Below are positions 6,730 through 62,155 of a stretch of DNA of 64,000 nucleotides, piece by piece (the first letter of the stretch is position 1; each line of letters starts with the position of its first letter). The position numbers and the translations under genes were made by a program. The notes under the pieces are model-generated. The model saw only the letters and a program-made list of their open reading frames with translations, had not been told where the DNA came from and made no database searches. The DNA is from Paratinospora sagittata (Eukaryota; Streptophyta; Magnoliopsida; Ranunculales; Menispermaceae): the NCBI GenBank assembly GCA_035771175.1, contig CM069597.1, positions 13,241,001 through 13,305,000 of the forward strand. The letters run 5' to 3'.

Positions 6730-6944
6730 TGTAACGCCCCATATGTACGAGTCAAACTTATACGTTGACCAATACGTATTGTCAAGCATATTTGTATGCA
6801 TATACGCATGTACATGACCTTAAAATAAAGAAAATACAAGTATTGTAGGGCTATTGGTACCCTAGGAGGCTAGTTGTATCATAAAATGCCCAACACTTAG
6901 TGAAAATTTCATATTTGAGTACAAGAAGCACGCTCCCTAAGGCG

Positions 6945-7075
6945 AGAAGCGCGCTCCTATGGAAAATTTGAGAGTCAAATTTTTAGGAAAGTTCAGAGAA
7001 GCGCTCTCCTTAAGGGAGAAGCGTGGTCCTGAGGCGAGAAGTGTTCTCCCCAAGGGGAGAAGCGTGCTCCTCGGT
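6945..7075 (+). promoter_or_regulatory. GCGCGCTCC motif cluster in U3 of LTR A
   Basis: Six spaced copies of variants of GAAGCGCGCTCCT within about 130 bases (for example 6947, 6971, 6999, 7019, 7037, 7061). They stand out in A+T-rich sequence. The core is a palindrome, and its position near the LTR start places it in U3. Confidence 0.6.
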
Positions 7076-8954
7076 GGGCCTGATAGTTTTTTTTAAAAGT
7101 CGGTGTGGCGGTTTGCATGCATCTTAAACACTTGTCTCGATCATTCTAGCACATTTTGAGCTGGCTAAACTTGGAGAAACCCAGAGCAACAAAGAGAAAG
7201 AGAAGATTTGATCTTGGAGAGCCAAATCCAAAGTGAGAATCATGATTTTTGGGTCAAAAAGTTATAGATTTTTGTTCTTCTCTTCAACTTGTATAACATA
7301 TACGAAATTTGCATGATTTCCATGGCTAGATTGAGAGCTGGGAAAAAGGGGTTTCAGCTGGATAATTGTTAAATCATTGAAAGGAAACCATAGGTAAGTA
7401 GTTCCTTGTGGTTTTGTGGTTAATTTGATATTAAATTTACTGATTTTCCATGGTTGGAAATAGAGTTCCAGACCTTGCAGGGTAAGGGTTTTGGAAATCC
7501 ATTTGAGTATTGAATTGATGTATTTTAGTATGGATTAAAGTATGATTGTGATTAATTGTGGTTTAGCAATGGTAATTACAGAGATTAGAGGAAAGAAATC
7601 GGTGGTTTGATGATGGGATGATGCACACAAGTGAGGTGTTTGTGCTATAACAGTTTAAAAGTTGGAAAATTGGCTAAGTATAGAGTGTGGACTTAGACAA
7701 AGTCCTATAATTGTGAGTATTTCTTATTTTTGGTTTTTATGTGTGGCATTGTAGTATAAACTCTATTTTATGAATTGAATCATATTGGTTATGCATTGTT
7801 GATAAAATGCATCAAAATTTGTTTTAAACATCGAATATGCCTGGGCTTCTTAATGTAAGAAAGGCATGAGATCAATTCCATTGTAAGGGAGAATCTGTAA
7901 GAAGATGATTTATGGATCAGGCCCTTAGGAATGATCGAATTTGATGGTTAGGTGAGTTAAGTTCTCTTTACCAATGCATAACAGGGATATAGACTTTCTC
8001 ATACACTGGATTATGAGTGGATGGTCAGATGAGGCATTTCTCTTTGATGTACATAAAAGGGAAAATGTGCTCATGAACCTGATGGTGAGGATTTACTATT
8101 TATGCATAGTATGATATGTATAGAATGTGACGACCCACACCCCAGACCACCATCCCTCATGGATCGGCGTGCAAAAGTCCCAGGGTAGGACTCCCGACGT
8201 AGGCATCTACGACCACCTCAAATCATCCCATGAGATGATCGGGACCCTACAAGCCTCAACCAGACTCTCATAGAGTCCCCAAAAAAAAATAATTAAACAA
8301 CATCAATCACCTAATAGACTTAACAATTCTAATATCAATGACATGCACATAAATCAAATAAGAATGATCTTCCAAGGCACACATAAACAACAATAATCAT
8401 AATCTCCCAAAATAATCCAAAGTCCAAGGCACATGGCCAATATACATCAAATCCAAGGCCACAAGGCCAATATACAACCATAAACACAAAGTCTCTCACC
8501 ATCTAGATTCAACAAGTGTTATATTAATTACATATGTATCAAAATAATTAAAACCATACACATGTAATTAAGGACATCAAACCATACGTAAGAGTCCTAG
8601 CTTGGCAATAGCTATCTCTCAAGCGTATGCTATGTCCTTTCCCTTGCCCTTGCCCTTATTAGTAGAACTTGAAAAGAGAATGAGAGTATGAGCCAACGGT
8701 GCCCAGTGGATAGTGTTCAGTACTGCCATCAATTATAGATCAACAAAAGTCATATGAATATTCATGCATGAAATAATACCATAAACATGCGAATCACAAA
8801 ACACAGTAAAATAAGCATTCTCAATTCCATGCATTTCAAAACCATTCATTTCCTGTTGTAGAGACCTACACGACCCTCCCTTATTGGGGTACAACTGACG
8901 TATAGATCATTCACTCGTTAGTGACATGATCCTCCCTTAATAGGGGCATTTAAA

Positions 8955-9265
8955 TTTCCACCTCTAGAGAAGTCAGCTTGGCAAACATGCACAAGCCTCT
9001 TAGGAACACCTAGGGAACTTAGCTTGGAACACCAAGCTTCTAGAGTTTCAAAACCATTCAAAATCCATCTCTAGAGAAGCCACCCTCGCAAACATGCACA
9101 AGCCTCCTAAGAACACCTAGGAAACTTAGCTTGGGAACACCTAAAGCCTTGTAGAGCTTCCACATACAAATCTACCTCTAGAGAAGTCAGCTTGGAAAAC
9201 ATGCACAAGCCTCCTAGGAATACCTAGGGAACTTAACTTGGAAACATCCAAAGCCATCTAGAGTA
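8955..9265. repeat. tandem imperfect repeat inside LTR B
   Basis: About three copies of a roughly 110-120 bp unit built on 'ctctagagaagtcagcttgg', 'catgcacaagcctc' and 'acacctagggaacttag' (starting near 8958, 9063 and 9174). It lies in the downstream half of the LTR when read on the minus strand. No coding is evident. Confidence 0.7.
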
Positions 9266-10591
9266 CCAATGCATGTCATTTTAAAACATATTTAAACACA
9301 TGCATTTCCATAATGATATTCATGACTTTCAACATACAAGTATAAGTAAATAGAACGACACAAGTGATAAGCAAGATGAACAACTACTCACAACCAACGC
9401 CACGCAAACAAAGCTATCCACACACGGACTAACACAGATTCCAATGCAAATCAAGATCCTGTAAACCATAGATTCATGCACATATATCAATTACCATGAT
9501 CATCCATGCATAGACACACTAATCATGATCAATTCCTAATTCAATAAAAACATTTGCATCTAATTCCCATCATGAGTTTCCCATCTCATGAATCAACCTC
9601 GACATCCGTGCGAATCCACATATAAGACTAATTTCCAAAAACTAAGACAATCACTTAGTCTAGGTCATTCAATCCTAACACAAGTCCAAAGCATTCAAAA
9701 CCATGCAAGATTGATCATAATCAAGTCAAATTCCTCAATTCAAATCAATACATGGCATATGACCCAATTTGGGAAAAAATCTCTATAATAGGCATAAAGC
9801 CAAATTGCACTAAGTCATACAAAATTAACATAGGTTCAAACAATCTAAACCCATGATTCCACTCCATTTAGGTCCAATTAAACAATCCCCAAGTCAATTT
9901 GATCAATTGACTTGGTTTAGGTCAAAATCCCCAATTTGGGCAAAATCTCCAAAATCAAGCCCTAAGGCGATTTTACACTAGAACTAGGGTTTTCAATGGA
10001 TAAAAATACTAAACACCACCATCAATCAACTAGAATCAGCCATTTATCCAACATAGAGGACATGCAAGCCCAAAGGAAATCCCTACGTTTGATTTCTAGG
10101 GTTTAGGCCTTTACACTTAGATTTACCAATTTCTTGTTAGAAATTGGGGAAAATGGTGTCATTGGGTTCCAAAACCACCAAGGAACCCAAATCTATAGCA
10201 TACACCATGGCCCTAAGGGTTTCCAACAAAACCCTAATCTCTTGCACCACCAAAACGTGGTGAAGTTCATGCAAAATGCATTCCAAGTGTAGATCTAGGT
10301 CTTAGAGGGTTGAATCAACCATAAGCAAGCCAAAAATGGCGAAGATCAGTGAACCCTAGGTTAGGGTCACTTCCAAACCGTGGTCAACACCGTCCCTTAG
10401 GTCAAAACCAAGCTTGTTTACTCATGTACAACGAGAAACTAGGAAGAAAATGGAGAAATATACTCACTTTGGGTGGGATTTGAGCAAGCAATCACCAAGC
10501 CCTAGCTTTCCCCCTTTTCTTCTCCTCTCCTCCTCTTTCTCCTCTTTCCAAGCTAAAAAATGTACTAATGAGCTCAAAATAGGTATACATT

Positions 10592-10862
10592 GCTTAAATA
10601 GTCAATTTTGGGCCCACACAAAAACACTTGCAAGAACTACCAAAAATCAGATTTCTGGGTTTTTTGGACATGGAGCGCACTCCATGCTCAGTGGAGCGCG
10701 CTCCTTTGAGTCCTAAATACGAAAATACCTCATTTTTTGGTTCATGGAGCACGTTCCTCAGGGGTTTTTTCAAAAATTTTGGGTTTTCTCTTCTCATGAA
10801 GCTCGCTCCTCGGTTGTTTTCCAAAAAATTGAGTTTTTTTCACTTCATGGAGCTCGCTCTAT
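10592..10862 (-). promoter_or_regulatory. U3 promoter region of LTR B: TATA plus GGAGCGCGCTCC cluster
   Basis: On the minus strand, GACTATTTAAGC (10592-10603) is a TATA-like box. Upstream of it lie clustered palindrome-like motifs: TGGAGCGCACTCC (10672), TGGAGCGCGCTCC (10692), TGGAGCACGTTCC (10745), GAAGCTCGCTCC (10798) and TGGAGCTCGCTC (10847). Confidence 0.65.
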
Positions 10863-12729
10863 AGATGTCCGAAATTTTAGAACTTCATTTCGACATTGCG
10901 CGCTTGATGCACATCGAAATTTCGCGTTTAGATAGGTGTTTTCCACATAAAAATGCATGTCGAACTCAATTCTAACATCCCCGAGTCTATTTGACACACT
11001 GAACATAAAGTTATCATAAAATCAACGTGAAAACACTCGAAATAACATGCATGAAACATCAAACATACAATCAAACACAAGGCAAAATACATAGAGTTTG
11101 GGAAAACACACAAACGGGTTATGGGCTAGATGAAATCATTTCCAGGGCGCTACATAGAGTGGCGGAAAATATATTTGAATCATGTATTGAAAGTTAGATG
11201 TGAATTGCATATTGAGTTTTATAACATGTTACATGCCATGATTTTGTATAAATGCATATGTAACGCATGGATAGTTTACTCACTGGGCTTGTTATAGCTC
11301 ACCCACCCCCTTTTATCTCAGGTATTGATTACAAAGGCAAAATCAAGGCTCCAGAGAAGTGATCTGAGCCTGTTGATTGCTGATATAAGTATTGTGGATG
11401 GGGAGTTGGTTTTATATCATTTTATTTTGGATATGTATATGTATATAACACTAGACTATGTATAAAATGGTTAGTGAGTGTATGAATGTAAAAGATATAT
11501 GTGAATGATATTAAAAGTTGTAAGTGAGATTATGATTTTAATATCATGTGGTCAAATGTGTATGAATTATGTGGGATGTGATATGGGATGGAATATTTGA
11601 GTATATGTGGATGTGAATGGTTTATATGTATATATTGAGATTCATATGTTGAATTGTGAATGTCTTGAGGACTATCATGTGTATGTGGAACTTCAGATTT
11701 ATGGAGAGGTTCTGCCAAAGATTTTGAGTGTATTTTGCGTGTATTTTCTTTAAGAGAGAGGCTAACAGGGTATTATATACGTCTATGTATGATGTATATG
11801 GTATTATGTGCCAGACATGATGTTGCCCTACGGAGGGGGTCGTGACACTAATGTTTCTTCAGGATGCTAATGCAACCTTGTCAGAAAAATCAAAAAGTCT
11901 GAAAAATTTATTTGCATTGTGCACTGTTCTGATTATTTTTACTTTCATGTATGCACAGAGATTTCAAAAATTCTTCAACGTTATTGTTTACTCCATTTCC
12001 GTGAAAGTATTTGATTTGAATTTTGAAATCAAAGTGCCAAAATTTTGGGAGATTGAGAATCCAAACACTTTCTATATATTCAATGACTTATGAGCCGTTG
12101 AGAGACAGAACAAGTGAAAATATCTTTCCGCTATTACTCTTTGAATGTTATTCACTTATCTCGCTGTGATACTACTTTGATACACATTTTACCTTTCGAA
12201 TTTCTCGAATCAACTTCATATCTTTCAAAATCCTACGAAGGAAAATATGAGCAAGTAACCTCAACTCTTTTAGCCTAGATTCAAACTTCTATCCATTACT
12301 GAAACTGTGATTAACTGAGGTTCATTGATTACTCTGTAAGGATTTCTTTGATTCGTAGTAAAATAATCAAACTCTTATCATGTATTTGACTTGTGAAGTG
12401 ACGGTATGTCACTGTGATTTTGAGCTGGTTTGCTCAAGGTGAGATGGTTGTCTCACTCCCGTAAGTTGAGAAACTGCAGAGGTTTTATCCTCACCTAGGA
12501 AGAGAATTGATTAGTGGAGTTTGGAAAAAATCATAGTTGGAGAGATTAGGTAGTGGAGGTAGGCAAGAGTCGAACGATTATAAATCGTGTGTGTTCTCTA
12601 TTTATTTTTCAGTTATTGCTTAACACTCGTTGTAACTTGTTTAAACTAAAAATTGTAATTTTTATTGAGTTATATAACCTGCTAAGCCGTCCAATTCACC
12701 CCCGTCTTAGATATTTTTGGGCCAACAAT

Positions 12730-13673: not shown

Positions 13674-15874
13674 TGTCGCGACCCCTCTCCGGGTGACATC
13701 ACGACCGGCACAGTACCCCAAATAATGCCACAATACGACAAAACCCGAGGCACTGGTAAGCCTCTACGAGGAAAGTACCTAATAAACTCAAATACATAAC
13801 CTGTATATAATTAAGATAATTGAACCAAAAATAAATAATACATCATCATCCAAATAATTATTCTAAGGTTCAATAATCCTCAAGACTATATGGAACTCAT
13901 CATAATAGTCCATCAAAATATCATAACTATCTATGTTTTATATACATAAGTACCTGTGATAGTTATATACAAATTCAAATAGCAAAACAATTAAAACTAG
14001 TCCCAAGTCCTAAAAAATATACAAGCCAAAACCTACATTCAAAAAGAATAAGAGGAAGGCCACACATACTTTAAGCCTTGTCCTTTCCTTTCTGATCTAA
14101 ACTTGAGAAAAGTAGGAAAAAATGGGGTGAGGTCAACTAGCTCAATAAATATTTTTCACAATAATCTCCACATATGCATTTATAAAAAAACATCTATGAT
14201 ATTTGAAATCTCATTCATAAACCAAATGCATCAATGAAAACTCATAATATACATGATTCCAAACTAAACATATGATTTATGCATCATTTCCATAAGAATC
14301 AAATATGCAAACTCTTTACCAAGAGGTCATGACAGAATAACACATTCATTTACTTCCCCCATTGGCCAATAGGTTCAGACCGGCACATTACCCATCACTA
14401 ATCCTCCTACTCTTCCATTCTTCAGTGCTTCGGAAAGTCTTTTCCACGGAGTACTAATTCAAGCATTCAGGTGGCACGTTTCCTTAAAGAACAAGCAAGT
14501 AGAAAGACAACAATGCCAAGGTATTTAATCCAAAACACCCAAGGCAATACTAATGCATAAACTCCATGCTCATGTTCTTAAAACACAATGCACAATATAT
14601 AATAGGATGCATACCATTCAACAATCCAATTTCATATAAATACAATGCTTTAAATGGAGAAATAAGGTAAAAAATGCTCACAAACAGTCCAATAGCCAAT
14701 TAAACAAATCAATTACATCCCAATTGGCCAATCAACTCACATAAACCTGAAATGAATCATATACATACACCAAATGATCAATTTCAAGTCAAGTATGCCT
14801 AAATACATAATTACTAACTCAAATCACATCTAATCCACACCAATTTGGATTAGAAACACCCAACACAATTTAATTGACCATTTCCAATTCAAATGCCTCA
14901 AAAGCCCTAATTTAGATAAATCTTTACATGGTCAAATTGAACTAAACACCATGCTACACCATGGAATTCATTAAATTGGCTCCATACTTTAATAAAGTAT
15001 GCCATAAACATCAACATAGCTCACATGCACACCATTTGAACACCTAAATCATAATAAATTCCATTAAAGTCTACATACATGCTAAGTTCCAATTATACAA
15101 GCTAAACTCATCAATAAAATGGAAACTCACCATTAAAACATGTATAACCACTCCAATTAATGGAATCTAAGCTTAAAGTTGGTAGGTTAGGGTTTCAAAT
15201 TCAAAAACCCTAACTTTACCCAGAAATGCAACTCATGCATGTGATCAAAACACTATACAATAGCAGAAAATCAACCTAATAAGCAAAACTAAGGAAGAAA
15301 TGGGGAAGAATTATCACCTTGGAAGCAAAGTTCACCAACCCTAGCTCCCAATCACCCAAAACCCCCCAAATTCCTCCACTCTTCTCCTTTCTTCTCTTCT
15401 TTCAGCTGCAAATGTTGCAAATGAGGAAGAAAAAAATGAGATTTCGCTTATATACCAAAGCTGGGCCCACTTGCAAATTTTTTTTAAAAAAAACTGCCCA
15501 GATGCAAGGAGCGCGCTTCTTAGCTCAAAATTGAGGAAAACAGGTCTCTTCCATTCCTAGAAAAATCCATATTTCAGTTTCATGCAAGGAGCACGCTTCT
15601 CTATTCAAGGAGCGCGCTTCTCCAATTACTAAAAAACTTCAACTCTTAGTTTTAAACAAGGAGCACGCTTATGCCATCCAGAAATTGAAAATTTACATGT
15701 CCAAGTGTATATCCACTTATACAATCATTCTAACAACAAAGAAACATGAAAATACACGTAAATACTTTGTATACACACAAAATACGAGTACTATACACAT
15801 AAAATACATACACAAGACCTAAAGTCAGGCATTTTACGTTATCATGACATCATATGTGAAAGTGGGTCGTTACA
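13674..15874 (-). mobile_element. solo LTR C, Tekay-like gypsy
   Basis: 2201 bp from TGTCGCGACCCC to GGGTCGTTACA with exact duplications ttttc (13669-13673 and 15875-15879). No internal region is present. It is the same family as LTR E. The minus-strand TATA is GGTATATAAGC (15446-15456). The upstream motif cluster at 15508-15668 has AAGGAGCGCGCTTCT at 15508 and 15606, and variants at 15587 and 15658. Inserted in the copia 2 gag. Confidence 0.92.
15446..15668 (-). promoter_or_regulatory. U3 promoter region of LTR C
   Basis: A minus-strand TATA box (15446-15456) with four AGGAGCGCGCTT-type motifs upstream of it on that strand (15508-15668). The layout is as in LTR B. Confidence 0.6.
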
Positions 15875-19029: not shown

Positions 19030-19955
19030 CCATTAGGATGCTAATATGTTTTTTCAGGACACTAATGTCTCAGCAGCGCCCTCCTGGAGTTGGTAAGTCA
19101 GGACGCTGATGAAACATTAGGACGCTGATAGAGTTCAAGGTTGAAACGTTCATATCCATCAAGACGCTTACTTCATCAATATCGCCCTCATTGAGTCAAC
19201 CAATGTACTTGTCAGGATGCTGATTCAATATCAACTCACTGATTATTTTTTGAGTTTTTAATGATTTAAATCATTAAGGACGCTGATAGTTATAAGTTGG
19301 AAAACTTTCAAGACGCTACTTGAACAAGAAACGCCCTCACTAAATAACCAACTTAGTAACTCTCAGGACGCTGATCGTTCTTTATCATACTTATCGTTTT
19401 ACGAATTTAAACACGTTAAAAACATCAAGACGCTCATAACCTTAGCAGTGCCCTTATGTTTTACTTGTTTTAAACGTGTCAGGACGCTAACTTTTGATTA
19501 GCGCCCTCACAGCTTTTGTCATCATTAATATTTAAGTAAGTCAGGACACTTACATTCTTGTAGCGCTTCACTTCTCAGTTCAGCAGGATGCTTATGGTCC
19601 ATGGGCGCCCTCAATGAACAAAACGACAAAGTTGACATTATGTGGCAGGATGTTGATTGACCAATCAGGACGCTAATCCAACACTGTCACAAAGCTGATA
19701 CTTGCACTTTTCAAAAGAAAATTTTTAGAGCTAAGCAAAACTTTTTTAGAAATCTTTGAATCTTTTAAGAACGTTCAAATACTTTATCTGAACACTCATT
19801 TATCATGAATGATCAAAAGATTCAGGTATTATTGTCGTAATTGCACAGACTGAATCAAATCATTTTTGGGAAAGAATGTGTTCGTTGTTTTTGAAATAAC
19901 TTTGTGCGCCAAAATCTTCAAGTTCATTGCGTCACTGTTGTTTCTATATATATGC
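19030..19955 (+). promoter_or_regulatory. U3 of LTR D: GGACGCT/AGCGCCC cluster and TATA box
   Basis: Between 19030 and 19690 there are more than fifteen copies of AGGACGCTGAT-type motifs and complementary AGCGCCCTC-type motifs, roughly every 30-60 bases. A TATA box CTATATATATGC follows at 19944-19955. This is the clearest example of the cluster in a forward copia LTR. Confidence 0.65.
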
Positions 19956-30327: not shown

Positions 30328-32575
30328 TGTTGATGTAACTACTCTCACCCAGTTTTGTTTTGATGATTGCAAACAACATACCTGTGTTATCTAATCTCTT
30401 TAACGTAGTTGTTTCAGTGCTAACTAGTTATATCTAATGGATTTAGCTGCTATGTTTGCATGTGGAAGGAACAATACTTCACGAAGATTCAAGAACTTCA
30501 TGGTTGTATTACTTTACTAGAATCTTAGTGTTGTAGAGTAATTATTACTTGTTCCAACCACACATGATTTGCATCTTTTCAAAAATCATTTATATAGTTT
30601 AATACACTCATGCATATACATTATTATATGATTAATCATGCATGCACATATTTCAAGATGATAATTATACTATCACTTAGTCATAATTGTTTAGCATACC
30701 TATAATGATTAGTGTTTAACATGCATCTATCTTGTCAACTTTGCATGGTTGTATCGTCTCACATGTTTTGTACCTATTGCTTTTATCATTAGTTTAATCG
30801 ATTAAATTCCTCATGTTTTAACTATGTTAATTATACTTTAATTGTGTTAAAAATGTTTTTGACAATATCTTATACCTAAAATGATTAAAAATCAAGTCTC
30901 TTTCACTTGTCAGTGAAGGAATGTGCTCCTATAGTAAAGAACGCGCTCCCGAGCTTTTTCCCGAAACTCAGTGATTTTTTTATCAGGGTTAAGGAACGCG
31001 CTCCTGTGGCATTTCTCGAGACTCAAATTTTTTCTGATCAGGAAAAAGGAATGCGCTCCTTAAAAGAGGAACGCGCTCCTATTGCCAAGGGAAAAATGAA
31101 AAAAAATTAAGAGTCTATAGTTCTTGTTGAAGGAACCCGTTCCTATGCCGAATAAACATATTGAGGAACGCGCTCCTTAATTAGAGGGAAATCTAAAATT
31201 TTTCAGATTTCAAACCAGAAACACGTTCATGTGCCTCGGTGTGGTGTTTATCTATAAATACCACACTTGCTCATTTGAAGAACAACTTTTGCAAAATTAA
31301 GAGAACTTGTACGATTTTCTCTACATCATTTATACTCATCCTAAACAAGTTCTTGAGTCATTTAATCCTTCATTCAAGGCAAACGTTCACTACATTTGAG
31401 TTCTTTGATTCAATCTTTTGAAGAGTTCTCCAAACCATTCCAAAATCTTTGAGAAACTAAGTTCTAGAGTGTTTGATCAAGGTGTTCTTAAATGTTTTCA
31501 TCACATACTTGTTGATCTTGATCATCTTTGTTAGAGAAATCTCTCAACCACATACACCTTGCATAATCAATGAACTTCATCTTACCTAAGTTGCGTAACT
31601 TTTCTTTTTCGATTCTAGTGTTTGTGTTTTGAATAGAAACGGTTTTATTGCTTGTTTTAATACATTATCAAATCGTTTTCTCTATTGTGTGAAACCGTAC
31701 TTGTGCTTTCATCTTCTATTATCTTGATAGTGGTTTCATGAGGTTTGATTAACATCGATTCTTATGCTTAATACATATATTGTTTGAATCAATTGTTTTG
31801 ATCGTAACTTGTATATATTGATTCACATGCTTGAACATTGATTATTTTAAATCAATAAGTTTTGATCAATAACTTGCATATTGATTCTTGTGCTTTATTA
31901 ATCATACTTAGAATCAATGTTTAGAAATACATGTATGCATACAATTCTTGAACTTGCATAAAAATACTTCAAATCAGTTGCATGTATTTTTAAGAAACTA
32001 TTTCAACATTGCACTTCATTTAGAATCATAGTGATTGGAATAGTGATTGTTGACTCAATCAAGATTGTAAGCTAAAATTGTTGAGAGTGTTGTTATTCTC
32101 TTCTCTATATCTTTGTAATCTTGATGTATCGTTGACTTGGTTAAGTCAACCAGGATATGACCTTACTCTGTACACGTAACCACGCCTGTAAGTTGGTTGC
32201 AACTTGTGGCTTACTAGCCAAGCCCTGGTATAGGCTAGATTGTGGCTTTCTAACCAAGCCCTCGTGTAGGTTAGTGTTATAGTGACTTTCTAACCAGGCC
32301 TTGATGTTGGTTAGTTTAAACGACTTCTAATCCCCCCATAAGTGATTTGCCAATAGTGGATTGAGAAATTCTGATCGATGTGATTGGTAGTGGACATAGG
32401 TTCAAGGGGGACCGAACCACTCTAAATCCTTTGTGTTCATTTATTTTCTTGCATTTAATTTTTGGATTGTTACCGTCTGCTCATATTATTTGTTTAAGTA
32501 AAATATTATAAAGGTAATATGAAAATTTGTAGAGTCTAATTCACCCCCCTCTTGGACGATTATACTGGGCCAACA
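30328..32575 (+). mobile_element. solo LTR H, SIRE-type copia variant
   Basis: 2248 bp from TGTTGATGTAACTACTC to GGGCCAACA, flanked by cagga (30323-30327) and cagaa (32576-32580), one mismatch. The R/U5 tail (from about 32330) is the copia family type, with 'gaccgaaccactctaaatcc'. U3 is different: in place of GGACGCT motifs it has GGAACGCGCTCCT motifs. TATA TCTATAAATA is at 31251-31260. Confidence 0.9.
30910..31260 (+). promoter_or_regulatory. U3 of LTR H: GGAACGCGCTCC cluster and TATA box
   Basis: Eight copies of GGAACGCGCTCC-type motifs, exact or with one to three changes, lie within about 310 bases: 30916, 30939, 30992, 31048, 31068, 31131, 31163 and 31218. They end about 30 bases before TCTATAAATA (31251). 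The motif is nearly the palindrome GGAGCGCGCTCC seen in gypsy LTRs B and C. Confidence 0.7.
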
Positions 32576-33003
32576 CAGAAGGGCGTTGCAGAGACATTAA
32601 CATCTGATAAACACATTAGCGTCCTGATGGACACTATAAAATAGTTTTGATATTTTTCAACTTTTAAAGCTCAATAAAATAGGATTAAAGTCTCAGTGTA
32701 TTTGAATCAAATCTATTATAGAAAGTTCATTGTAAGTGATCGAAAAATACTTTGAAATCAAATCGATTAAACCATGCAAATATGTTAAACTTGCAGAGAG
32801 TTATTTGATCGAAAGTTTTACATACTAAGTACTTGAAAACTTGATACTTTGATCTTTGATGTTCAATGGACATGTAAGCTCTACTCTTGGATCTTGGTTC
32901 TTGATAGTCATGAAACATTTAACAAGATCATTAGATACACAAACATGAGTAGCTTGGAATCATTAAGACATTCTCATCATGGGGTTCCTTTGAGATAAGA
33001 ACA

Positions 33004-35743: not shown

Positions 35744-38700
35744 TGTCACGACCCACTATACGTGACGTCATGACCGGCACGGGAACCTCCGAGTATACCT
35801 TCCGTCAGTACACCCGACGTCCTGTCAGCCTAAAATACATATGCGAATCCCCAAAAAGAAATAAAAGTACATCCTTAACAACCAACTAACATGATCATAA
35901 TGAAATAAAATAATACTTCTCCAAATTACCAAATATAAAATTCCAAAGTATTTCAAAATGATACAAAATCCAACACATCCCAACTATGTGTTAAATATAC
36001 AATTACTAGGTGTTATCATGTACATAGTTATCAAAATCCAAAACTAAATGTACAACACCTACATGAGACAAAAACAAGGGACGCTCCGCAGTCAAGCCTT
36101 CCCTTTTCCTTTTCTATCAGATCCTGAAAGAAGATGGTGAGGTGTGAGCTACAGCCAGCTCAGTGAATGTTATATACAAGTGGCATATACGTGCATTTAT
36201 AAAACATGGTAAGATCATAAATCATTGAAATATCATGATGACAAAATAGATTACATACATGCTAACATAATGGATCAAGTCATACATAAGCCAATGCATA
36301 ACATTTGAAGTCATGCTCATTCAATCCTAACACCTCCTGAGTACGGGGGTTCAAGGCTGGTGTGCTACACACAGTACCTGAACACACACTCAATACTCGT
36401 ATCCTAATAGGATTTTTGGGGCTGTGCAGCACGTAAGATTAGCCTAAACTAACCTACCCATACACAAGCCATAAAACCCTCTGCCAGGTACACAACTGGG
36501 ATCGCCGCTAAACTTACGAGAATTCCCAAAAAGAAGAAATTCCAAGTAGGAGCCTCAACCCAAATTGTCATCCCAATGAATTATGCTCAAATGTATTTCA
36601 TGGAATATTAAAACATGTATACCATCATACATAAGCATTTAAAACATTTCTATACTACAATGCCACATTTAAATAATCCAAAAGTAAAAGAACACTCACC
36701 CTTGATGGGTTAAGTCTAGCCAATTCAATCACCAACACTCTTCAATTGACTAAACAGGTTCAAGATCAATCACAAGACCTGGAAATAACATGGTTCACAC
36801 AACTGAAAATCAGTCATAAAGTGTGTCAAAACCCCATGTTCAAACCCAATCTAAAGTCAATTAGATTCTAAATTGATTACCCCCTCGAGCCAATTTCCTT
36901 ATTGCTCAACTTAATCATTTAGACTCAATTAAACTGAGATTGACCTTAATTGAATGTAATAGGGTGATTCCATGATCCAACCACTAATATACATGACATT
37001 CAATTATAATTAGGGTCAATCAGACTATACATCAAGTCAATTTTATCAATTGACCAAGTCTTGGTCAAAATCCCCAATTAGGCCAATATAAAACATAAGA
37101 TCAAAATGAACTAAGTCATATCAATTTAACATAGGTTCTAACATTTTAAACCCATGATTCTACTCCATTTGGGTCCAATTAAACAATCCCCAAGTCAATT
37201 TCATAAATTGACTTGCTTTGGGTGAAAAGTCTCAATTTGGGCAAAATCCCCAAATTACATGCAAAATTGCCAAAGTACATGAAAAATACCAAATACTTAG
37301 CCTAGATCAAAATTAGTCAACCTTAGGGTGTCCATTATGAGAACCCACTGAATTCAATAATCAAACAACCCTAATCATGTCCAATAAGACCTACATTGCA
37401 TAATTTTCCAGACTTTATATCAAGAGCATCAAAAGCCCCAAATCTGGAAATTTTCATGCACAGGCCATATTGCCAATTTTACACTAGGCCACCATGTTCA
37501 GCCATGAATTTTACTGCTCTTGCAACATGGAATCATCCACAATGCCACCTAGAACAACATAGTTGACATGCATGACTTTTGGAAAAGCCTAAGGCCATGA
37601 ACCAAACAATGACCATTTACACTAAACCATATGATTTCACCATTAAAATCTCAAGCTAAATACATGAATCAATCCCTAATACTGATCAGTCCATCATAGA
37701 TGGCATGCAAAGCTTAAGTCAAAGTCTAGGTCAATGAACCAAGACTAGGTCATTTGTACTGAACCCTACCAATTTCTTGCTAGAAATTGGGGCTTTTGCC
37801 TTTAGAGGGTTCCCAACACACTCTAAACACACATATCAAACATGCAAAGCATTTGAACAATATTTGATTTCCACTACCCCTTCAAATCTGGGTTTCATAC
37901 AATGCATGCATCAAAACAACACTAGCATGCATGAACCAAAGAGATTGAAGGAAGAACAATGAGGAAAAACATGCAAACTTTAGGAATTTTGAGCAAAATC
38001 CACCAACCGTAGGTTTCCTCTCATTTTCTCCTCTTCTCCTCTTCAGCTCCTTTCTCTCTTCTCTAGCTCCTTTCTATCTTTTCTAGCTGAGAAATGAGCA
38101 AATGATCCTAAAATTACGTTTTGGTTGCTTAAATAGATAAGCTTGGGCCCACAACTAAAAGTTGCCCAAAAACTATCAAAAAAATAGTTTTCTGTTGCAA
38201 TACTTGCACTTAGATAGTCCATTTCTTGCAAAATACCCACCAATTTAACATCTTAACCGTACAAAAGTTGCATTAGTCAGTTACCAACATTTTGGTAAAT
38301 TTCAACTCAATCCAACAATGGGATTGCGAGATTTAACTGTTTGATCAAAACTGCGCAAGAAAATCTAAAAATTTGTGAAACAGTGTTTGAAGTCTTATAA
38401 CTCATAGTAGGTAACTCCTATCAAGATCTTCACCGTTCATAATCAAGATCTATCTTATAAGAATGAGCTGACAAAATTTCAGCTCAATCGGACCAGGATC
38501 TAAGAGATCACACCATTGATGTAATTTGTGACAGAAATCTCTTCCTCCATGGAGAGAGCTCCACTGGATCCAAAACACCGTTTTCGACATGTTTTGACGT
38601 CGAACGGGTCTCCGATGGTACCAAAACTTCATGCGCACTCTTTATGACTTAAAATCATGCAAAGACACTCGAACTTACGTGTTTTGAGCATCAAAATATA

Positions 38701-38789
38701 TATACACATACGTATACGAATACGTATACGTGTACTCTACGGGTACACTATGGGTCAAAATGACGTCACCTAAAGACACGGGTGCTACA
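35744..38789 (-). repeat. gypsy 1 3' LTR
   Basis: On the plus strand TGTCACGACCCAC to GGGTGCTACA. Minus-strand TATA-like CTATTTAAGC is at 38127-38136. Near the U3 end it has overlapping CGTATACG palindromes (38698-38735). It is closely related to LTR B and more distantly to A, C, E and I. Confidence 0.93.
38698..38735. repeat. CGTATACG palindrome cluster at the gypsy 1 U3 end
   Basis: Two TACGTATACG units within 38 bases in the 3' LTR. The other LTR (46645-46682) keeps a decayed version with point changes. Confidence 0.6.
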
Positions 38790-38801
38790 ACTCTCCCCAA
38801 C
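38790..38801 (-). other. gypsy 1 polypurine tract
   Basis: The minus strand reads AGTTGGGGAGAGT ending at the LTR boundary, the expected plus-strand primer. Confidence 0.85.
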
Positions 38802-38846
38802 TTAGGAATATTTTTTTCCTCAAAAATAAAAGCAAGAGAACTAACC

Positions 38847-41800
38847 TCAGTCGGTAAAGAGGTCGGGGAATTGCTCCCTTATCTGTTCCTCGCGCTCCTA
38901 GGTTTGCTTTTCATTATTGTGGAATTGCCATCTGACTCGCACAAGCGGGATTTCCTTATTTCTCAATTTCTGAACACTACGAGCCACAATCTGAATAGGC
39001 AACTCCTCATAAGTCATATCCTCCCCAACTTGCAGATGACTCACATCAAACCCATGAGCTGGATCGGGATAAGACTCCTTCAATGGATCCTCATTAAACT
39101 TCCTCAGCATCGATACGTGGAATACATCATGAACACCCTCGAGCTGAGAAGGTAGAGCCAACATGTACGCTACTGGTCCAATCCTCTCAACAATCTAGAA
39201 TGGCCCAATAAACCTAGGGGCAAGTTTCCCACTGACACCGAACCTCTTCTGACCTTGAGTGGTGAGACCTTAAGCAAAACTAGATTTCCTACTGCAAACT
39301 CTAACGGCCGATGTCGGTTATCATAATAACTTTTTTGCCTGTCCTGAGCTGACTTCAGCCTCTGCCGAATCAGCTTGACTTTCTCAGTCTGCTCAACAAC
39401 TGCATTAGGGCCCCATAACTGCGTATCACCCACCTCGTACCAACAAGTTGGAGATCTACAGGGTCTTTCATACAAAGCCTCATACGGTGCCATACTGATG
39501 CTAGCCTGATAACTGTTGTTGTAAGCAAATTCACACAAGGGCAAATGCTCACCCCAACCACCACCGAACTCTAAAATGCAAGACCTGAGCATATCCTCCA
39601 GCATCTGAATCACTCTCTCGGACTGACCATCTATCTGAGGATGAAATGTTGTACTGAGTCAGAGGCAGGTCCCAAATCGAGTCTGTAAGGCCTGCCAAAA
39701 CCTTGATGTAAATCGTGGATCTCGATCCGACACGATAGACAAGGGCACTCCATGCAATCTCACGATCTCTCTCACATATAATCTACTCAGTCTATCCGCA
39801 GAGTCCCTGACGCTCATAGGAAGGAAGTGCGCACTCTTGGTCAATCTATCGACCACAACCCAAATGACATCAAATCTTCCCTGAGACCTCGACAATCCCA
39901 TGATGAAAGCTATTGTGATGTGTTCCCATTTCCACTCGGGTATGGGCAATGGTTGCATCTGACCTCCAGGTTTCCGGTGTTCAGCCTTAACCTGCTGACA
40001 CACCTCACATCTCTGCACATACTCAACAATACTCTTCGTCATCTCGTGCCACCATACAGATCTCTTCATGTCATGGTACATCTTGGTAGCCCCTGGATGA
40101 ACAGTATACTGAGACCTGTGAGCCTTTCGAAGTATCTCAGCACGCAACTCAGCATCATATGGGACCCATAGTCTCTCTCTATACCGCAAGACATCATCTA
40201 GACCAATCTGCCAATCGGCCTGGTCAACATTGTCTGCGTATCCACGATACATGTCATAATCTGGACAATGTTCCTGTAAATATCTAACCTGCGGAATATG
40301 GGCATCCGCAAGCTGCACGTGCATCTGAGCACATATCTCAGTAAGTGGTGCGTTCGAGAGTATACTCATCATAGTCACTTTCTCAAGTAAATGCCACTGT
40401 TGGGCCATTTGAAAAGCAACCACCTGAGTCCCTGCTCACCTACGGCTCAAAGCATCAGCCACAACATTGGCTTTGCCAGGATGATACTCCAAAGAGAAAT
40501 CATAATCCTTTAGTAACTCGAACCATCTCCTCTAGCGCATATTCGGCTCCTTCTGATCAAAGAGGTACTTCAAACTCTCGTGATCAGAAAACAAAGTGAA
40601 CCTCTCACCATAAAGGTAATGCCTCCATAGCTTCAGTGCAAATACAATAGCGGCTAGCTCCAAATCATGCACAGGGTAGTTGTGCTCATGCACCTTAAGT
40701 TGTCTAGATGCATATGCAACCACTCGACCCTCCTGCATCAGTACACATCCCAGACCTAAGAGTGATGCATCAGTATAAATTACCAACTCTTTCCCAGGCT
40801 CTGGAAGAATCAACACTGGAGCTGTAGTCAACCTCTTTTTCAACTCACTGAAAGCCCTCTCACAGGCATCTGACCACGTGAAGGCCACGCTCTTCTGAGT
40901 CAGCTTAGTCATCGGCGTGGATATTGTGAAAAAGTCTTTCACGAACTTCCTGTAATAGCCAACCAAACCCAGAAAGCTACGAATCTCGGTCACTGTGGTA
41001 GGTCTTGGCCAATCAATGATTGCCTCAACCTTAGCAGAATCAACAGAAATACCCTCTGCACTAACCACATGACCCAAGAATTTCATCTCAGTCATCCAGA
41101 AATCACACTTGCTCAGCTTGGCATACAACCTATGCTCCAACAATGTCTGTAAAGTAACTCTGAGATGACGCTCATGATCCTCTCTTGTCTTAGAATAGAC
41201 TAGGATATCATCGATGAAGACTATAATGAACTGGTCAAGGTACGGCCTAAACACTCTCTACATCAGATCCATGAACATAGCTGGTGCATTAGTCAACCCG
41301 AAGGGCATCACCAGAAACTCGTAATGTCCATACCTCGCCTGAAAAGCAGTCTTCGGCACATCCTCATCTCTAAACCTCAACTGATGGTACCCAGACCTCA
41401 AGTCAATCTTCGAAAAGAACTTGGCCCCAATCAGTTGGTCAAACAAGTCATCAATACGAGGAAGTAGATATTTGTTCTTCACAGTTACCTTATTCAGTTG
41501 ACGGTAGTCTATACACAAACGAAGACTCCCATCTTTTTTCTTGACGAACAACACAGGCGCTCCCCAAGGTGACATGCTAGGGGAAATAAATCCCTTGTCC
41601 ATCAGCTCATCAAGCTGGGCTCTGAGTTCATTCAACTCTTTCGGTGCCATACGATACGGTGGAATGGAAATTGGTTTAGTCCCGGGCATCAACTCAATGA
41701 TAAAGTCTACCTCTCGCCTCGGCGGCAAGCCAGGTAACTCATCAAGAAAGACCTCTGGGTACTTGCAGACTATAAGAATGTCTGCTAGCTGAATACCCTG

Positions 41801-42339
41801 ACTCACATCATCCACTGGCGTCAAACTCGCCATCGTAGCAACCTCATCATTAGTGGCTAATCTACCCTGGGTAGGTGGTCTCGATGCAGTCCTGCCTCGA
41901 AAGACGAAGGCTGGCTCTCCTGGTATCTGAAAGATAACCCTCTTGCCGAAGCAATCAATGTGAGCGTGATACGCTGCCAGTCAATCCATACCCAAAATGG
42001 CATCAAACTCTAGGACCTCTAAGACTCTAAGGTCAACAGACATCTCGTGGTCTTCGAATCTCACAATGCATCCCACACATACCATATTAGGGTAAATTCT
42101 CTCACCGGCCGCCGTCTCAAAATCAACGGCGTACTAGTCCTAACGGTACACAATATCAAACTATCTACTACACCACCAGAAATAAATGACAGAGTAGAAC
42201 CAGCATCAATCAAGACATACATCAAAGAATTGCAAATGCTGATTGTACCTTCTATTAGTTGCTTGCTAGCCTCGGGATCTGCCTGTGTCACAGCTCTGGC
42301 CTGCTCTCTGGTAAGTGCAGCTGTAGATCTAAACTGACC
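38847..42339 (-). pseudogene. gypsy 1 pol (protease, RT, RNase H, integrase, chromodomain-like)
   Basis: Tekay-type pol. The protease motif reads DAG (42200-42208) in LIDAGSTLSFIS, where retroelement proteases have DTG or DSG. A frame change follows near 42061. RT (41833-41000) has [23 protein letters not shown] and the catalytic FIDD (about 41203-41220). RNase H is at about 40795-40590 ([10 protein letters not shown], then [10 protein letters not shown]). Integrase has the HHCC domain (about 40125-39995), then [10 protein letters not shown] where the first catalytic Asp is replaced by Ala, [10 protein letters not shown] with the second Asp, and DGQSERVIQMLEDML with the Glu. The end has HDVFHVSMLRK and a chromodomain-like PLVRVRWQFHNNE segment. 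Stops are at about 41257, 40531, 40424 and 39656. Confidence 0.92.
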
Positions 42340-43476
42340 AAAATGCATCCTCTGTGGACATTGGTTCCTCTTATGCCCTGGAGCCCCACAACCATAACAC
42401 ACAATCGGCCTAGGTGCTCTAGATGCAGAAGATACAGCCTGCGACCCGATTCCGGCTGTCTGCTATCCACCAGATCTGACAAAACTCTGTTGTTGCTGCT
42501 GGGATTGACTAAAAATCCGAACACTGTGGCCCGCAGCTGGTGGTACCACTGATACTGGAGCAGAGGCTACAGATGCCTCATATCCACTGCCGCTGAATCT
42601 TAGCCTCTTATTACGTCGGCCTCTCCTGCCACTGAAATACTGTGCCTCTGATCCTGCCTGTTGAGTCTGAACTGTAGGAGCTGCGGGTGCCTGGACTGCT
42701 GCAGGTAACCTCATCCGAGAATTGGCCTCTGCGGCCTCAAAATATGCGGCCTGCCCCATAGCTTGCGCATCGGTCTGCACGCCAGCCAGTGCCAAACCCT
42801 CACGGATACGGTCTCTGAAACCATCCCGTATCCTCTGCATCCTCAGCTCATTGGTAGAAACCATCTCTGGAGCGAAGAGTGCCAACCTGTTGAACTCTTG
42901 CTCGTACTCTCTCACGGACATGTTGCCCTGGGTCAGATGTAAAAATTGGATCCGACGTTGATCCCTCTCGGCTGGTGGATAGAACTCTACAAAAAATAAC
43001 TCATTGAATCTAGTCCAGGTCCAGACCTCGCCCTTGAGACGCTCCACCCGTTCCCACCATTTGTTAGCCTTGTCAATTAGCTTAAACCTGGCAAGCATGA
43101 CCTTATCATGCTCAAGCGCCCTCATATCGCTGAAAATGGTCTCCAAACGAGTCAACCAACCCTCAACAAGCTCTAAATCAAGACCTCCCGGAAACTCAGC
43201 AGGATTCCGATTCTTAAAGGCTTTCATAACTCTCTCATAGCGGTCCTTCTCTGCCCGCTCAGCCTCAGTCTCCCCAGCTACGACATGCTGGACCCCAGCT
43301 GGTCTTGCCTGCTCTGTCTGATCCCCTACTACTGTTGCCACACTACTGTCCTCTACAGCCACTGCTCCATCATCCTGCGGTGGTGGCCTAACACCTTGCC
43401 TACGGCCTAGCAACTCAAGAATCTGGGCCTGCTGCTGCTGAGTGGCCTCTAAGAATGCCTCTATACGCCTAATCAT
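42340..43476 (-). pseudogene. gypsy 1 gag (retrotransposon gag, zinc knuckle)
   Basis: Capsid/nucleocapsid protein. Starts at ATG 43476 about 190 bases after the PBS. A Gln-rich N-terminal helix (FLEATQQQQAQILELLG) is followed by a Retrotrans_gag domain (FPGGLDLELVEGWLTRLETI to FNRLALFAPEMVSTNELRMQ, about 43200-42830) and a basic linker. The CX2CX4HX4C knuckle CYGCGAPGHKRNQC lies at about 42355-42396. One in-frame stop at about 42463-42465 lies between capsid and knuckle; otherwise the frame is open for 337 codons, the longest coding stretch in the window. Confidence 0.92.
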
Positions 43477-43673
43477 TCCTCTGGGTCCATGGCTGATCCT
43501 GTTTTTTCTTCTCTTATAAATATCTGAAATTCACAATAAGGAAGAGCTCAATCAGGATGACAATCCAGGAAAAGTTACCCCCTAAGATAACTACCCAAAA
43601 TCATACTCATAAAGGCAATCATAATATCTTATAAGTTTTTTATTCTTTTAAGGATTTTAAACCTAAAACACTC

Positions 43674-43685
43674 GCTCTGATACCA
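43674..43685 (-). other. gypsy 1 primer-binding site
   Basis: The minus strand reads TGGTATCAGAGC, four bases inside the 5' LTR end; an exact Met-tRNA complement. Confidence 0.95.
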
Positions 43686-43689
43686 TAGT

Positions 43690-46600
43690 TGTCACGACCC
43701 ACTATACGTGACGTCATGACTGGCACGGGAACCTCCGAGTATACCCTCCATCGGTACACCCGACGTCCCGTCAGCCTAAAATACATATACGAATCCCCAA
43801 AAAAAAAATAAAAGTACATCCTTAACAACCAACTAACATGATCATAATGAAAATAAAATAATACTTCTCCAAATTACCAAATATAAAATTCCAAAGTCTT
43901 CAAAATGATACAAAATCCAACACATCCCAACTATGTGTTAAATATACAATTACTAGGTGTTATCATGTACATAGTTATCAAAATCCAAAACTAAATGTAC
44001 AACACCAACATGAGACAAAAACAAGGGACGCTCCGCAGTCAAGCCTTTCCTTTTCCTTTTCTATCAGATCCTGAAAGAAGATGGCGAGGTGTGAGCTACA
44101 GCCAGCTCAGTGAATGTTATATACAAGTGGCATATACGTGCATTTATAAAACATGGTAAGATCATAAATCATTGAAATATCATGATGACGAAATAGATTA
44201 CATACATGCCAACATAATGGATCAAGTCATACATAAGACAATGCATAACATTTGAAGTCATGCTCATGCAATCCTAACACCTCCTGAGTACGGGGGTTCA
44301 AGGCTGGAGCGCTACACACAGTACCTGAACACACACTCAATACTCGTATCCTAATAGGATTTTTGGGGCTGTGCAGCACGTAAGATTAGTCTAAACTAAC
44401 CTACCCATACACAAGCCATAAAACCTTCTGCCTGGTACACAACTGGGATCATCGCTAGACTTACGAGAATTCCCAAAAAGAAGAAATTCCAAGTAGGAGC
44501 CTCAACCCAAATTGTCATCCCAATGAATTATGCTCAAATGTATTTCATGAAATATTAAAACATGTATACCATCATACATAAGCATTTAAAACATTTCTAT
44601 ACTACAATGTCACATATAAATAATCCAAAAGTAAAAGAACACTCACCCTTGATTGGCTAAGTCTAGCCAATCCAATCACCAACACTCTCCAATTGACTAA
44701 ACAGGTTCAAGATCAATCACAAGACCTGAAAATAACATGGTTCACACAACTGAAAAACGGTCATAAAGTGTGTCAAAACCCCATGTTCAAACCCAATCTA
44801 AAGTCAATTAGATTCTAAATTGATTACCCCCTCGAGCCAATTTCCATATTGCTCAACTTAATCATTTAGACTCAATTAAACTGAGATTGGCCTTAATTGA
44901 ATGTAATAGGGTGATTCCATGATCCAACCACTAATATACATGACATTCAATTATAATTAGGGTCAATCAGACTATACATCAAGTCAATTTTATCAATTGA
45001 CCAAGTCTTGGTCAAAATCCCCAATTAGGCCAATATAAAACATAAGATCAAAATGAACTAAGTCATATCAATTTAACATAGGTTCTAACATTTTAAACCC
45101 ATGATTCTACTCCATTTGGGTCCAATTAAACAATCCCCAAGTCAATTTCATAAATTGACTTGCTTTGGGTGAAAAGTCTCAATTTGGGCAAAATCCCCAA
45201 ATTACATGCAAAATTGCCAAAGTACATGAAAAATACCAAATACTTAGCCTAGATCAAAATTAGTCAACCTTAGGGTGTCCATTATGAGAACCCACTGAAT
45301 TCAATAATCAAACAACCCTAATCATGTCCAATAAGACCTACATTGCATAATTTTCCAGACTTTATATCAAGAGCATCAAAAGCCCCAAATCTGGAAATTT
45401 TCATGCACAGGCCATATTGCCAATTTTACACTAGGCCACCATGTTCAGCCATGAATTTTACTGATCTTGCAACATGGAATCATCCACAATGCCACCTAGA
45501 ACAACATAGTTGACATGCATGACTTTTGGAAAAGCCTAAGGCCATGAACCAAACAATGACCATTTACACTAAACCATATGATTTCACCATTAAAATCTCA
45601 AGCTAAATACATGAATCAATCCCTAATACTGATCAGTCCATCATAGATGGCATGCAAAGCTTAAGTCAAAGTCTAGGTCAATGAACCAAGACTAGGTCAT
45701 TTGTACTAAACCCTACCAATTTCTTGCTAGAAATTGGGGCTTTTGCCTTTAGAGGGTTCCCAACACACTCTAAACACACATATCAAACATGCAAAGCATT
45801 TGAACAATATTTGATTTCCACTACCCCTTCAAATCTGGGTTTCATACAATGCATGCATCAAAACAACACTAGCATGCATGAACCAAAGATATTGAAGGAA
45901 AAACAATGAGGAAAAACATGCAAACCTTAGGGATTTTGAACAAAATCCACCAACCCTAGGTTTCCTCTCCTTTTCTCCTCGTCTCCTCTTTAGCTCCTTT
46001 CTCTCTTCTCCAGCTCCTTTCTCTCTTTTCTGGCTGAAAAATGAGCAAATGATCCTAAAATTACGTTTTGGTTGCTTAAATAAATAAACTTGGGCCCACA
46101 ACTAAAAGTTGCCCAAAAACTATCAAAAAAACAGTTTTTTGTTGAAATACTTGCATTTAGATAGTCCATTTCTTGCAAACTACCAACCAATTTAACATCT
46201 TAACCGTACAAAAGTTGAATTAGTCAGTTATTAACATTCTGGTAAACGTTCAACTCAATCCAACGGTGGGATTGCGAGAGCTAACTCTTTGATCAAAACT
46301 GCGTAAGAAAATTTGAAAATCTATGAAACAGTGTTTGGAGTCTTATAACTCATAGTCGGTAACTCCTATCAAGATCGTCACCGTTCATAATCAAGATCTA
46401 TCATATGAGAATGAGCTGAAAAAAGTTCAGCTCAATCGGACCACGGATCTATGAGATCAAACCATTGATGTAATTTGTGACAGAAATATCTTCCTCAATG
46501 GAGAGAGCTCCACTGGATCCAAAACACCGTCTTCGACATGTTTTGACGTCGAACGGGTCTCCGATGGTACCAAAACTTCATGCGCACTCTTTATGACTTA

Positions 46601-46738
46601 AAATCATGCAAAGACACTCGAACTTACGTGTTTTGAGCATCAAAATACATATACACATACATATACGAATAGGTATACGTGTACTCTACGAGTACACTAT
46701 GGGTCAAAATGACGTCACCTAAAGGCACGGGTGCTACA
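43690..46738 (-). repeat. gypsy 1 5' LTR
   Basis: 3049 bp partner of 35744-38789. Divergence between the two is uneven: almost none across 44750-45840, much more across about 45890-46500. The TATA region at about 46071-46080 has one change from its partner. Confidence 0.93.
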
Positions 46739-55300: not shown

Positions 55301-55523
55301 CTTATGAAAAAAAAAAGAATTATATATATGAATGATATTTTGTGTATATGTTGAATGGATTAATATGAATGATGATAATATGATTCATATGTGATAATTT
55401 TTTTAGAGATTTACATGTATGTCTTAAAGGACGAAGGCTGACAGAGTATCGCATACGTCTAAGTAAGGCGTATACGATATTCTGTGCCGGTCATGATGTC
55501 GCCCTATGAAGGGGGTCGTGACA
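52316..55523 (+). mobile_element. LTR I, Tekay-type gypsy, solo, no target duplication
   Basis: Starts TGTATCGCCCC and ends GGGGGTCGTGACA, the same family and orientation as LTR A. The flanks gtgat (left) and gatac (right) do not match, so it may be the product of recombination between two insertions, or one flank has been altered. It contains a 798-bp tandem duplication (about 53007-54584). It sits between gypsy 2 ORF1 and gag. Confidence 0.75.
53007..54584. repeat. 798-bp tandem duplication in LTR I
   Basis: Two copies in direct order (53007-53804 and about 53805-54584). For example 'gactacgaccacgagagatt' starts at 53027 and 53825, and 'gtgctgttatagtggtgaat' recurs at the same spacing. The copies differ at only a few bases, so the duplication is much younger than the LTR. 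Confidence 0.93.
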
Positions 55524-61669: not shown

Positions 61670-61717
61670 TGTAATACCCTGTATTTCACAAAAAAAAAAA
61701 AATTACTATTTGGGCAA

Positions 61718-62155
61718 CGCCCGAACGTTTAGGCGCATGACAGAACGTTCAGGCGCATGACAGAACTTTCAGGCGCATGCCAGAACGTTCAGGCGCATGA
61801 CAGAACGTACAGGCGCATGCCAGAACGTTCAGGCGCATGCCAGAATGTTCAGGCGCATGACAGAACGTTCAGGACGTTCAGGCGCATGCCAGAACGTTCA
61901 GGCGCATGACAGAACGTTCAGGCGCATGACAGAACCATCAGGCGCATGACAGAAAGTTCAGGCGCAATGCATGCCCAAACGTTCAGGCGCATGCCAGAAC
62001 GTTCAGGCGCAAGGCATGCCAGAACGTTCAGGCGCATGCCAGAACGTACAGACGCATGCCAGAACGTTCAGGCGCATGCCAGAACGTTCAGCCGCATGCC
62101 AGAACGTACAGGCGCATGTCAGAACGTTCAGGCCCATGCCAGAACGTTCAGGCGC
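61718..62155. repeat. 20-bp minisatellite in U3 of gypsy 3
   Basis: About 21 copies of a 20-bp unit, consensus CAGAACGTTCAGGCGCATGC, with scattered changes and a few short or long units (61871, 61966, 62010). Each unit holds the palindrome GAACGTTC and the near-palindrome GGCGCATGCC. It ends directly before the TATA box. The gypsy 2 LTRs have at most one related unit here. Confidence 0.95.

Follow-up and report, generated by a model that had tools for sequence, protein, structure and literature searches.

The closest described counterpart of the repeats analysed here is the Sirevirus RM, a palindrome that recurs many times within the first half of the LTR, a short way before the TATA box, and is suspected of being a regulator (Bousios et al. 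2010, PMC2829016). In the available text of that paper, the published RMs share a CGG-CCG core and a start 200-400 bp into the LTR, with Tnd-1 as the exception, and the RM is called Sirevirus-specific and absent from other Ty1/copia elements, within a data set of Ty1/copia elements. Other systems are comparable in part: Ty3/gypsy Del elements have CpG islands (Cruz et al. 2014, PMC4029996), ONSEN and other COPIA families carry heat-response elements (PMC5059998), and a palindrome links Copia and Helitron elements in maize (PMC10760457).

The window (the whole stretch of DNA that was analysed, 64,000 nucleotides; Table 1) contains arrays of a short palindromic word in LTRs of both Ty1/copia and Ty3/gypsy type. 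Like the Sirevirus RM, the arrays of the LTR termed H hold many copies of a palindromic word upstream of a TATA box (13 of 15 loci) and lie in a Sirevirus LTR; the H word is an imperfect palindrome. Unlike the RM as the available text presents it, the majority word of H, GGAACGCGCTCC, lacks the CGG-CCG core, the H array begins 572-612 bp into the LTR (five loci with the start located), and the GGARCGCGCTCC word is found also in the gypsy groups B and D and, judged by LTR ends, in A and C. The Del islands, as far as the accessible text describes them, are likewise CpG-rich and variable and occupy the 5' part of long gypsy LTRs; that text, however, does not contain "palindrom", the eudicot Del group of that study had no island, and the arrays here are only 40-52% GC. 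The ONSEN/COPIA elements, in the available text, also provide LTRs with transcription-factor sites, which duplication has partly enlarged and which were gained repeatedly, but they are nGAAn arrays, belong to Ty1/copia only, and come with expression evidence. The maize case, as described in the accessible part of its report, also places one palindrome in different superfamilies of one genome, whereas its word is CACCGGACNNNGTCCGGTG and its carriers are an LTR retrotransposon and a Helitron, not copia and gypsy promoters. Literature searches with the exact words returned no plant LTR paper by title, and among the matches listed none reported, by title or abstract start, one palindromic word in copia and gypsy promoters.

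We propose that the arrays are upstream activating sequences of LTR promoters, similar in kind to the Sirevirus RM, and that one unit design occurs in both superfamilies, most likely by way of exchange between elements; we put the probability of this reading slightly above even, at roughly 0.53.

Table 1. Positions of the stretch analysed and of the LTRs, arrays and promoter elements within it (window numbering unless a contig is named).
Feature	Position	Strand	Remarks
Stretch analysed	C9:13241001-13305000		genome assembly 1.29 Gb
LTR A	6730..11847	+	ends TGTAACGCCCC...GGGGGTCGTGACA; LTR B nested within; target duplication CTAAT
A array	6925..7070	+	GAGAAGCGCGCTCC variants; TCGGTGTGG at 7100-7108
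B array	10672..10860	-	GGAGCGCGCTCC variants; LTR sense start 11154, opposite end not found; then TGGGCCCA 10609-10616, TATTTAA 10594-10600
LTR C, solo	13674..15874	- (sense inferred from ends)	target duplication TTTTC; gypsy-type ends
C array	15508..15671	-	four copies, sense RAAGCGYGCTCC; then TGGGCCCA 15462-15469, TATATAAG ~15447-15454
GGACGCT / AGCGCCC array	19075..19674	+	related minus-strand sequences 25103-25636, 27387-27869, 29809-30308
LTR H, solo, Ty1/copia Sirevirus	30328..32575	+	nested in another element; imperfect 5-bp target duplication CAGGA/CAGAA
H array	30918..31176	+	7 copies of GGAACGCGCTCC variants; start-to-start spacings 20, 55, 55, 20, 64, 33
H core promoter	31236..31276	+	TCGGTGTGG 31236-31244, TATAAATA 31253-31260, GCTCATTT 31269-31276
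gypsy 1, reference Ty3/gypsy element	35744..46738	-	~3-kb LTRs, 97% alike; used to class B and D
20-bp tandem array containing GAACGTTC	61723..62155	+	ends ~10 bp before TATATAAG (62165)

LTR H has the ends TGTTGA...CAACA, and its copies L006-L008 align to the window across 30330-32575. In the full copy L049, AGGGGGAGAT is followed by TGTTG at the 3' LTR, which AAAAAGGGGGAGAT immediately precedes, and L061 is alike in both respects. The two loci have AGGGGGAG, then AT, then the TG that starts the 3' LTR, which are the Sirevirus PPT and att site as given in the available text of PMC2829016; because of these sites, LTR H belongs, by its sequence, to a Ty1/copia Sirevirus. Stretches of L049, which also holds an insertion, are about 70% alike to window sequence with RVT_2, and the two stop-free pieces of L049 itself that were tested gave no Pfam hit; from where the alignments end, the copia genes downstream in the window would be part of H's host element. 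The 3.6 kb around H (29300-32900), including flanks beyond the LTR, recur at 99.7-100% identity at four other places (L001, L003, L004 and L005: one on C2518 and three on C21), which suggests a recent duplication of the entire nested structure.

An earlier note on this DNA had claimed GC-rich motif clusters in LTRs H, A, B and C. Counts in the intervals that it named (30910-31260 for H) are far above what base composition predicts: GGARCGCGCTCC-like words with at most 2 mismatches number 7 in H, 5 in A, 5 in B and 4 in C, whereas 300 dinucleotide-preserving shuffles per interval averaged 0.037, 0.087, 0.030 and 0.050 and never exceeded 2. The genome has 1,076 places with exact GGAGCGCGCTCC and 5 with the word reversed; for GGAACGCGCTCC the corresponding counts on both strands are 4,473 and 22. 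Reversal of the word is the sole genome-wide control for this excess. The palindrome arrays are real and far above chance.

For a survey of arrays, 50 of the 1,076 exact GGAGCGCGCTCC places were listed and fell into 44 clusters on C1 and C2, of which 40 were fetched, one (L009) came from a 200-kb sample and 3 were left out. At least 3 copies (at most 3 mismatches) stand in one cluster at 37 of the 40 fetched sites; L031 and L046 have 2 copies each and L060 is without a cluster. At the sites surveyed, the word hardly occurs outside such arrays. When the words were masked and the arrays grouped by blastn, there were 16 arrays in H, 11 in A, 11 in B and 5 in D, with L046, L065 and LTR C single; these sizes include the window LTRs, L006 and L009, and exclude three overlapping secondary clusters (L050.0, L048.1 and L055.1). 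The unassigned L046 and L065 were kept out of the group tests, L046 re-entering for the CCGAGA/TCAGG unit test only, and H was held apart by hand from the other groups, its links to them being nested neighbours and one 26-bp match. At the same tolerance of 3 mismatches, each of the 16 H arrays has 6-11 copies, and 12 of them have at least 8.

The classification of B and D depends on gypsy 1, which has gypsy gag, protease, RT, RNase H and integrase domains. The B-group LTR L009 aligns piecewise over the full gypsy 1 LTR at 68-77%, and the D-group locus L051, in which no LTR start was found, is 67% alike over 366 bp to the 3' internal end of gypsy 1; by this homology B is Ty3/gypsy, and so is D, from one locus. 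A and C have similar, gypsy-type LTR ends, and an A promoter profile scores 4 of 5 D loci above the best background; from the ends, and for A also from this profile link, A and C are probably gypsy-type. (For LTR A, an alternative CTAAT end at 9518 was passed over, as the LTR end misfits there.) On this sequence evidence A, B and C form one broad lineage and H alone is separate. The note had described the LTR families as unrelated, which holds for the Sirevirus H and not for A, B, C and D, all gypsy-type; the independence of A, B and C is not supported.

Other structures were seen in and beyond these groups. A second A-type LTR at 52316-55523 has the end GGGGGTCGTGACA, its target duplication was not found, and inside it lies a 781-bp tandem duplication (53006-54584, 98% alike). 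L015 and L025 are tandem arrays with units of about 1.17-1.19 kb that partly match a stretch of L051, and by their sequence are probably satellite DNA.

The arrays have a common architecture. In every group the sense-strand word is GRARCGCGCTCC with small differences, and most intervals between neighbouring copies measure 19-22 or 48-57 bp: 83 of 116 in H and 98 of 111 in A, B and D together. The GGA/TCC flanks of the word are shared between families and are less variable than the CGCG core in H, A, B and D. Among changes in the CpG core, transitions predominate in H (75 of 97), A (29 of 42) and D (18 of 21), which fits methylation of silent copies; in B, transversions nearly equal transitions (23 of 48). 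Helical phasing of the copies was considered for A, B and D (R 0.71-0.76 at 10.4 bp) and is not claimed, because H differs (R 0.40, with a best period of 11.2 bp at R 0.73) and because two spacing classes fit many periods.

Downstream of the arrays, the picture differs by group. A TATA box within 150 bp after the last copy, found in nearly all H loci as given above and 23 bp beyond the last copy in 9 of the 15, is present in 6 of 11 B loci, in the single C locus, in 2 of 11 A loci (0.6 expected by chance) and in 1 of 5 D loci (0.3 expected), loci with less than 140 bp downstream (one in H) being omitted; no canonical TATA box follows the window A array within 150 bp. The note's placing of the motif cluster just upstream of TATA is therefore borne out in H, C and half of B, and describes only rare loci in A and D. 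Within 130 bp past the last copy, TCGGTGTGG is exact in 5 of 15 H, 5 of 11 A, 0 of 11 B, 0 of 1 C and 0 of 5 D loci (with at most 1 mismatch, in 7 H, 6 A, 4 D and no B or C loci), and it occurs once on both strands of the 200-kb sample. In the same interval GCTCATTT, which we take to fit the plant initiator consensus, stands in 11 of 15 H, 3 of 11 A, 3 of 11 B, 3 of 5 D and 0 of 1 C loci. In LTR B, LTR C and 7 of the 11 B-group loci, TATA is shortly preceded by TGGGCCCA, presumably a TCP site by its consensus.

Arrays of other words are also found. The GGACGCT/AGCGCCC arrays that the note listed are real: the window holds 33 copies of GGACGCT and 14 of AGCGCCC, largely clustered, in sequences that blastn relates to one another. 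These sequences were looked at as possible Sireviruses, and the only AGGGGGAG in the window (5065) is without the following AT and TG. The GAACGTTC cluster likewise proved to be an array, in a separate LTR that by eye starts at 61670 with TGTAATACCC. This LTR-like family (61670-62155) has about 20 copies of a 20-bp unit, made of GAACGTTC and GGCGCATGCC, directly before TATATAAG, and a second copy of the family is found in L024 (up to 7279). Two further clusters dissolved on inspection: LTR J has only two exact AGCGCTACC plus variants, which is not an array, and gypsy 1 only two adjacent CGTATACG (38711 and 38723) near the LTR start, together with one decayed GGAG-word copy per LTR (38551 in one) and no array of it.

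In a scan of 264 kb, comprising the window and the 200-kb sample of 20 stretches chosen by us, a TATA-plus-initiator pattern, which missed the window LTRs H, A and B, matched 20 sites. At least 4 copies of a GC-containing palindromic word lay within 350 bp upstream at 6 of the 20 and downstream at 1; two of the six belong to the GAACGTTC family, so the comparison is of five families against one. The note's view that LTRs carry arrayed, promoter-proximal palindromes resembling activator sites is upheld by this contrast and by the presence of such arrays in both Ty1/copia and Ty3/gypsy LTRs. Repeats ahead of TATA-like sites were also seen as the palindromic words AGGCGTCT/AGACGCCT at L012:4569 (-), as CCTCGAGA about 100 bp apart at L016:4948 (+), and as TCTCGAGA at L020:6766 (+).

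The likeness between H and the gypsy groups extends beyond the word. In gypsy spacers, the commonest 6-mer with at least two G or C is CCGAGA (9 loci, 3 groups), whose offset from the word start is 22 in all 9 exact gypsy spacer occurrences and 23 in 6 of 7 in H, and TCAGG stands near the unit end in both superfamilies. With at most 1 mismatch each, both are in place in 19 of 38 units in H, 5 of 13 in D, 5 of 26 in B, 2 of 12 in A and the single unit of L046, where mononucleotide shuffles predict 0.028, 0.034, 0.064, 0.017 and 0.005, an optimistic expectation because the words were first noticed by eye in the same loci; with TCAGG exact, the two-arm units number 12 of 38, 3 of 13, 1 of 26, 0 of 12 and 1 of 1, in the same order. 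The matched offsets and the occurrence in both superfamilies are the stronger part of this evidence. The gap from CCGAGA to TCAGG is longer in H than in gypsy units, which would account for a 55-bp unit in H and a unit of about 51 bp in gypsy.

Such a unit would begin with the palindrome AGGARCGCGCTCCT, with CCGAGA about 22 bp from the start in many units, continue with an A/T tract and end with TCAGG before the next palindrome; a second palindrome may follow the first by 20-21 bp. Units would have multiplied through local tandem duplication, at least in H and D, where it is clear because spacers are alike within a locus (mean scores 23.5 and 18.0, against 5.5 and 4.6 after shuffling); in A and B, spacers of one locus (11.0 and 12.8) resemble each other no more than they resemble those of D (12.8 and 12.1). 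We infer that the sites bind host transcription factors and raise transcription, because they precede the promoter, keep one orientation in H, and are better conserved in the flanks than in the CpG core. A U3 promoter piece may have passed between elements long ago, its protein-binding parts being kept.

Wider homology between H and the gypsy LTRs was sought in several ways. Apart from nested neighbours, masked blastn yielded a single match of 26 bp, between L048 and LTR B, which was rejected as being in opposite sense and A/T-rich; a match between L046 and L047 was set aside as a neighbouring LTR end. Whole-spacer homology was likewise rejected: forward against reverse-complement scores of H are 10.2/6.8 with A, 7.6/7.6 with B and 6.9/7.6 with D, so that H spacers align better than their reverse complement with A only. 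Core-promoter homology by profile was too weak to keep: in a test omitting L061, L033.0 and L045.0, the H profile scored 2 of 5 D loci and hardly any A or B locus above its best background piece, and the A, B and D profiles scored no H locus above theirs.

These outcomes sit well with convergence, in which Sirevirus and gypsy LTRs independently gained sites for one host activator complex, as Brassicaceae COPIA elements did for heat-shock factor; we regard this as a substantial possibility, short of even. Heat-response elements are, in the available text of PMC5059998, gained repeatedly and species-specifically in COPIA families, H and gypsy LTRs have no flanking homology beyond nesting, their core-promoter profile links are weak, and neighbouring sites vary by group, TGGGCC within 130 bp past the last copy being found in 7 of 11 B, 4 of 11 A and 1 of 1 C loci and in none of 15 H or 5 D loci. 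What convergence explains poorly is the extent of the match between H and gypsy, which exceeds the needs of one binding site: a word of 12-14 bp in the same orientation, paired spacings, and corresponding offsets of CCGAGA and TCAGG. Transfer of a unit would fit the matched sub-elements at least as well, and since several sub-elements, offsets and one orientation are common to H and gypsy, we lean, with low confidence, towards exchange. Against a shared unit, TCGGTGTGG is absent from B and C and never exact in D, and a canonical TATA is mostly absent in A and D; the comparison of H and gypsy arrays covers one plant genome.

The palindromes might instead be kept for folding as RNA or DNA, as packaging signals or small-RNA hotspots, and not as protein sites, which we consider improbable. 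Small-RNA hotspots have been reported for maize Sireviruses, a link cited in the accessible part of PMC10760457. Array pieces do fold in the sense strand, at mean z of -2.3 in H, -3.2 in A, -5.7 in B and -4.8 in D, against -1.1, -2.3, 0.1 and -0.7 for downstream pieces (pieces of at most 220 bases, 15 shuffles each, first 5-6 loci per group), and 18-42% of the spacers in 48-57 bp units of these groups fold at p<0.1, against 13% of 764 controls; yet any array of palindromes would fold. Moreover, in H and A the palindrome is interrupted at a constant pair and in one orientation: pair 4 is complementary in 28% of H copies and pair 2 in 30% of A copies, 11 H copies are exactly GGAACGCGCTCC and none is its complement. 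The half-sites vary independently of each other, although independent decay of dead copies would mimic this, and 13 H copies are perfect palindromes, although the fetched sites had been chosen for holding one. Selection for hairpins is thus less likely than protein sites.

Less probable still is that slippage passively multiplied a functionless GC-rich word into minisatellites. The likeness of spacers within H and D loci and the greater variability of the CpG core relative to its flanks in H, A, B and D are as this would predict, but it leaves unexplained why one word occurs in two superfamilies, stands ahead of TATA in H, B and C, and keeps a single orientation. Binding of CAMTA factors to the CGCG core, which the note suggested and for which ACGCGC and GCGCGC presumably fit the CGCG-box consensus, is very improbable, given that the shared GGA/TCC flanks are the less variable part and that the words GGACGCT, GAACGTTC and CCGAGA are without CGCG; no literature treating LTR retrotransposons with CGCG and CAMTA together was found.

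Activating arrays of one design therefore stay our preferred reading, and the evidence suggests that both superfamilies use, or have swapped, one promoter part. We advance more tentatively, as a possible and not a probable outcome, that the composite unit crossed between Ty1/copia and Ty3/gypsy in one genome and that, by way of the word's thousands of copies, both superfamilies have come to rely on a single host activator and to compete for it. A kind of feature reported as Sirevirus-specific among Ty1/copia elements is here extended to gypsy elements, and the unit of about 52 bp offers a concrete bait for finding the host factor. Were a single promoter design to serve both superfamilies, many mobile elements of this genome might be controlled at once by one host factor, and LTR promoters might be handled as interchangeable modules.
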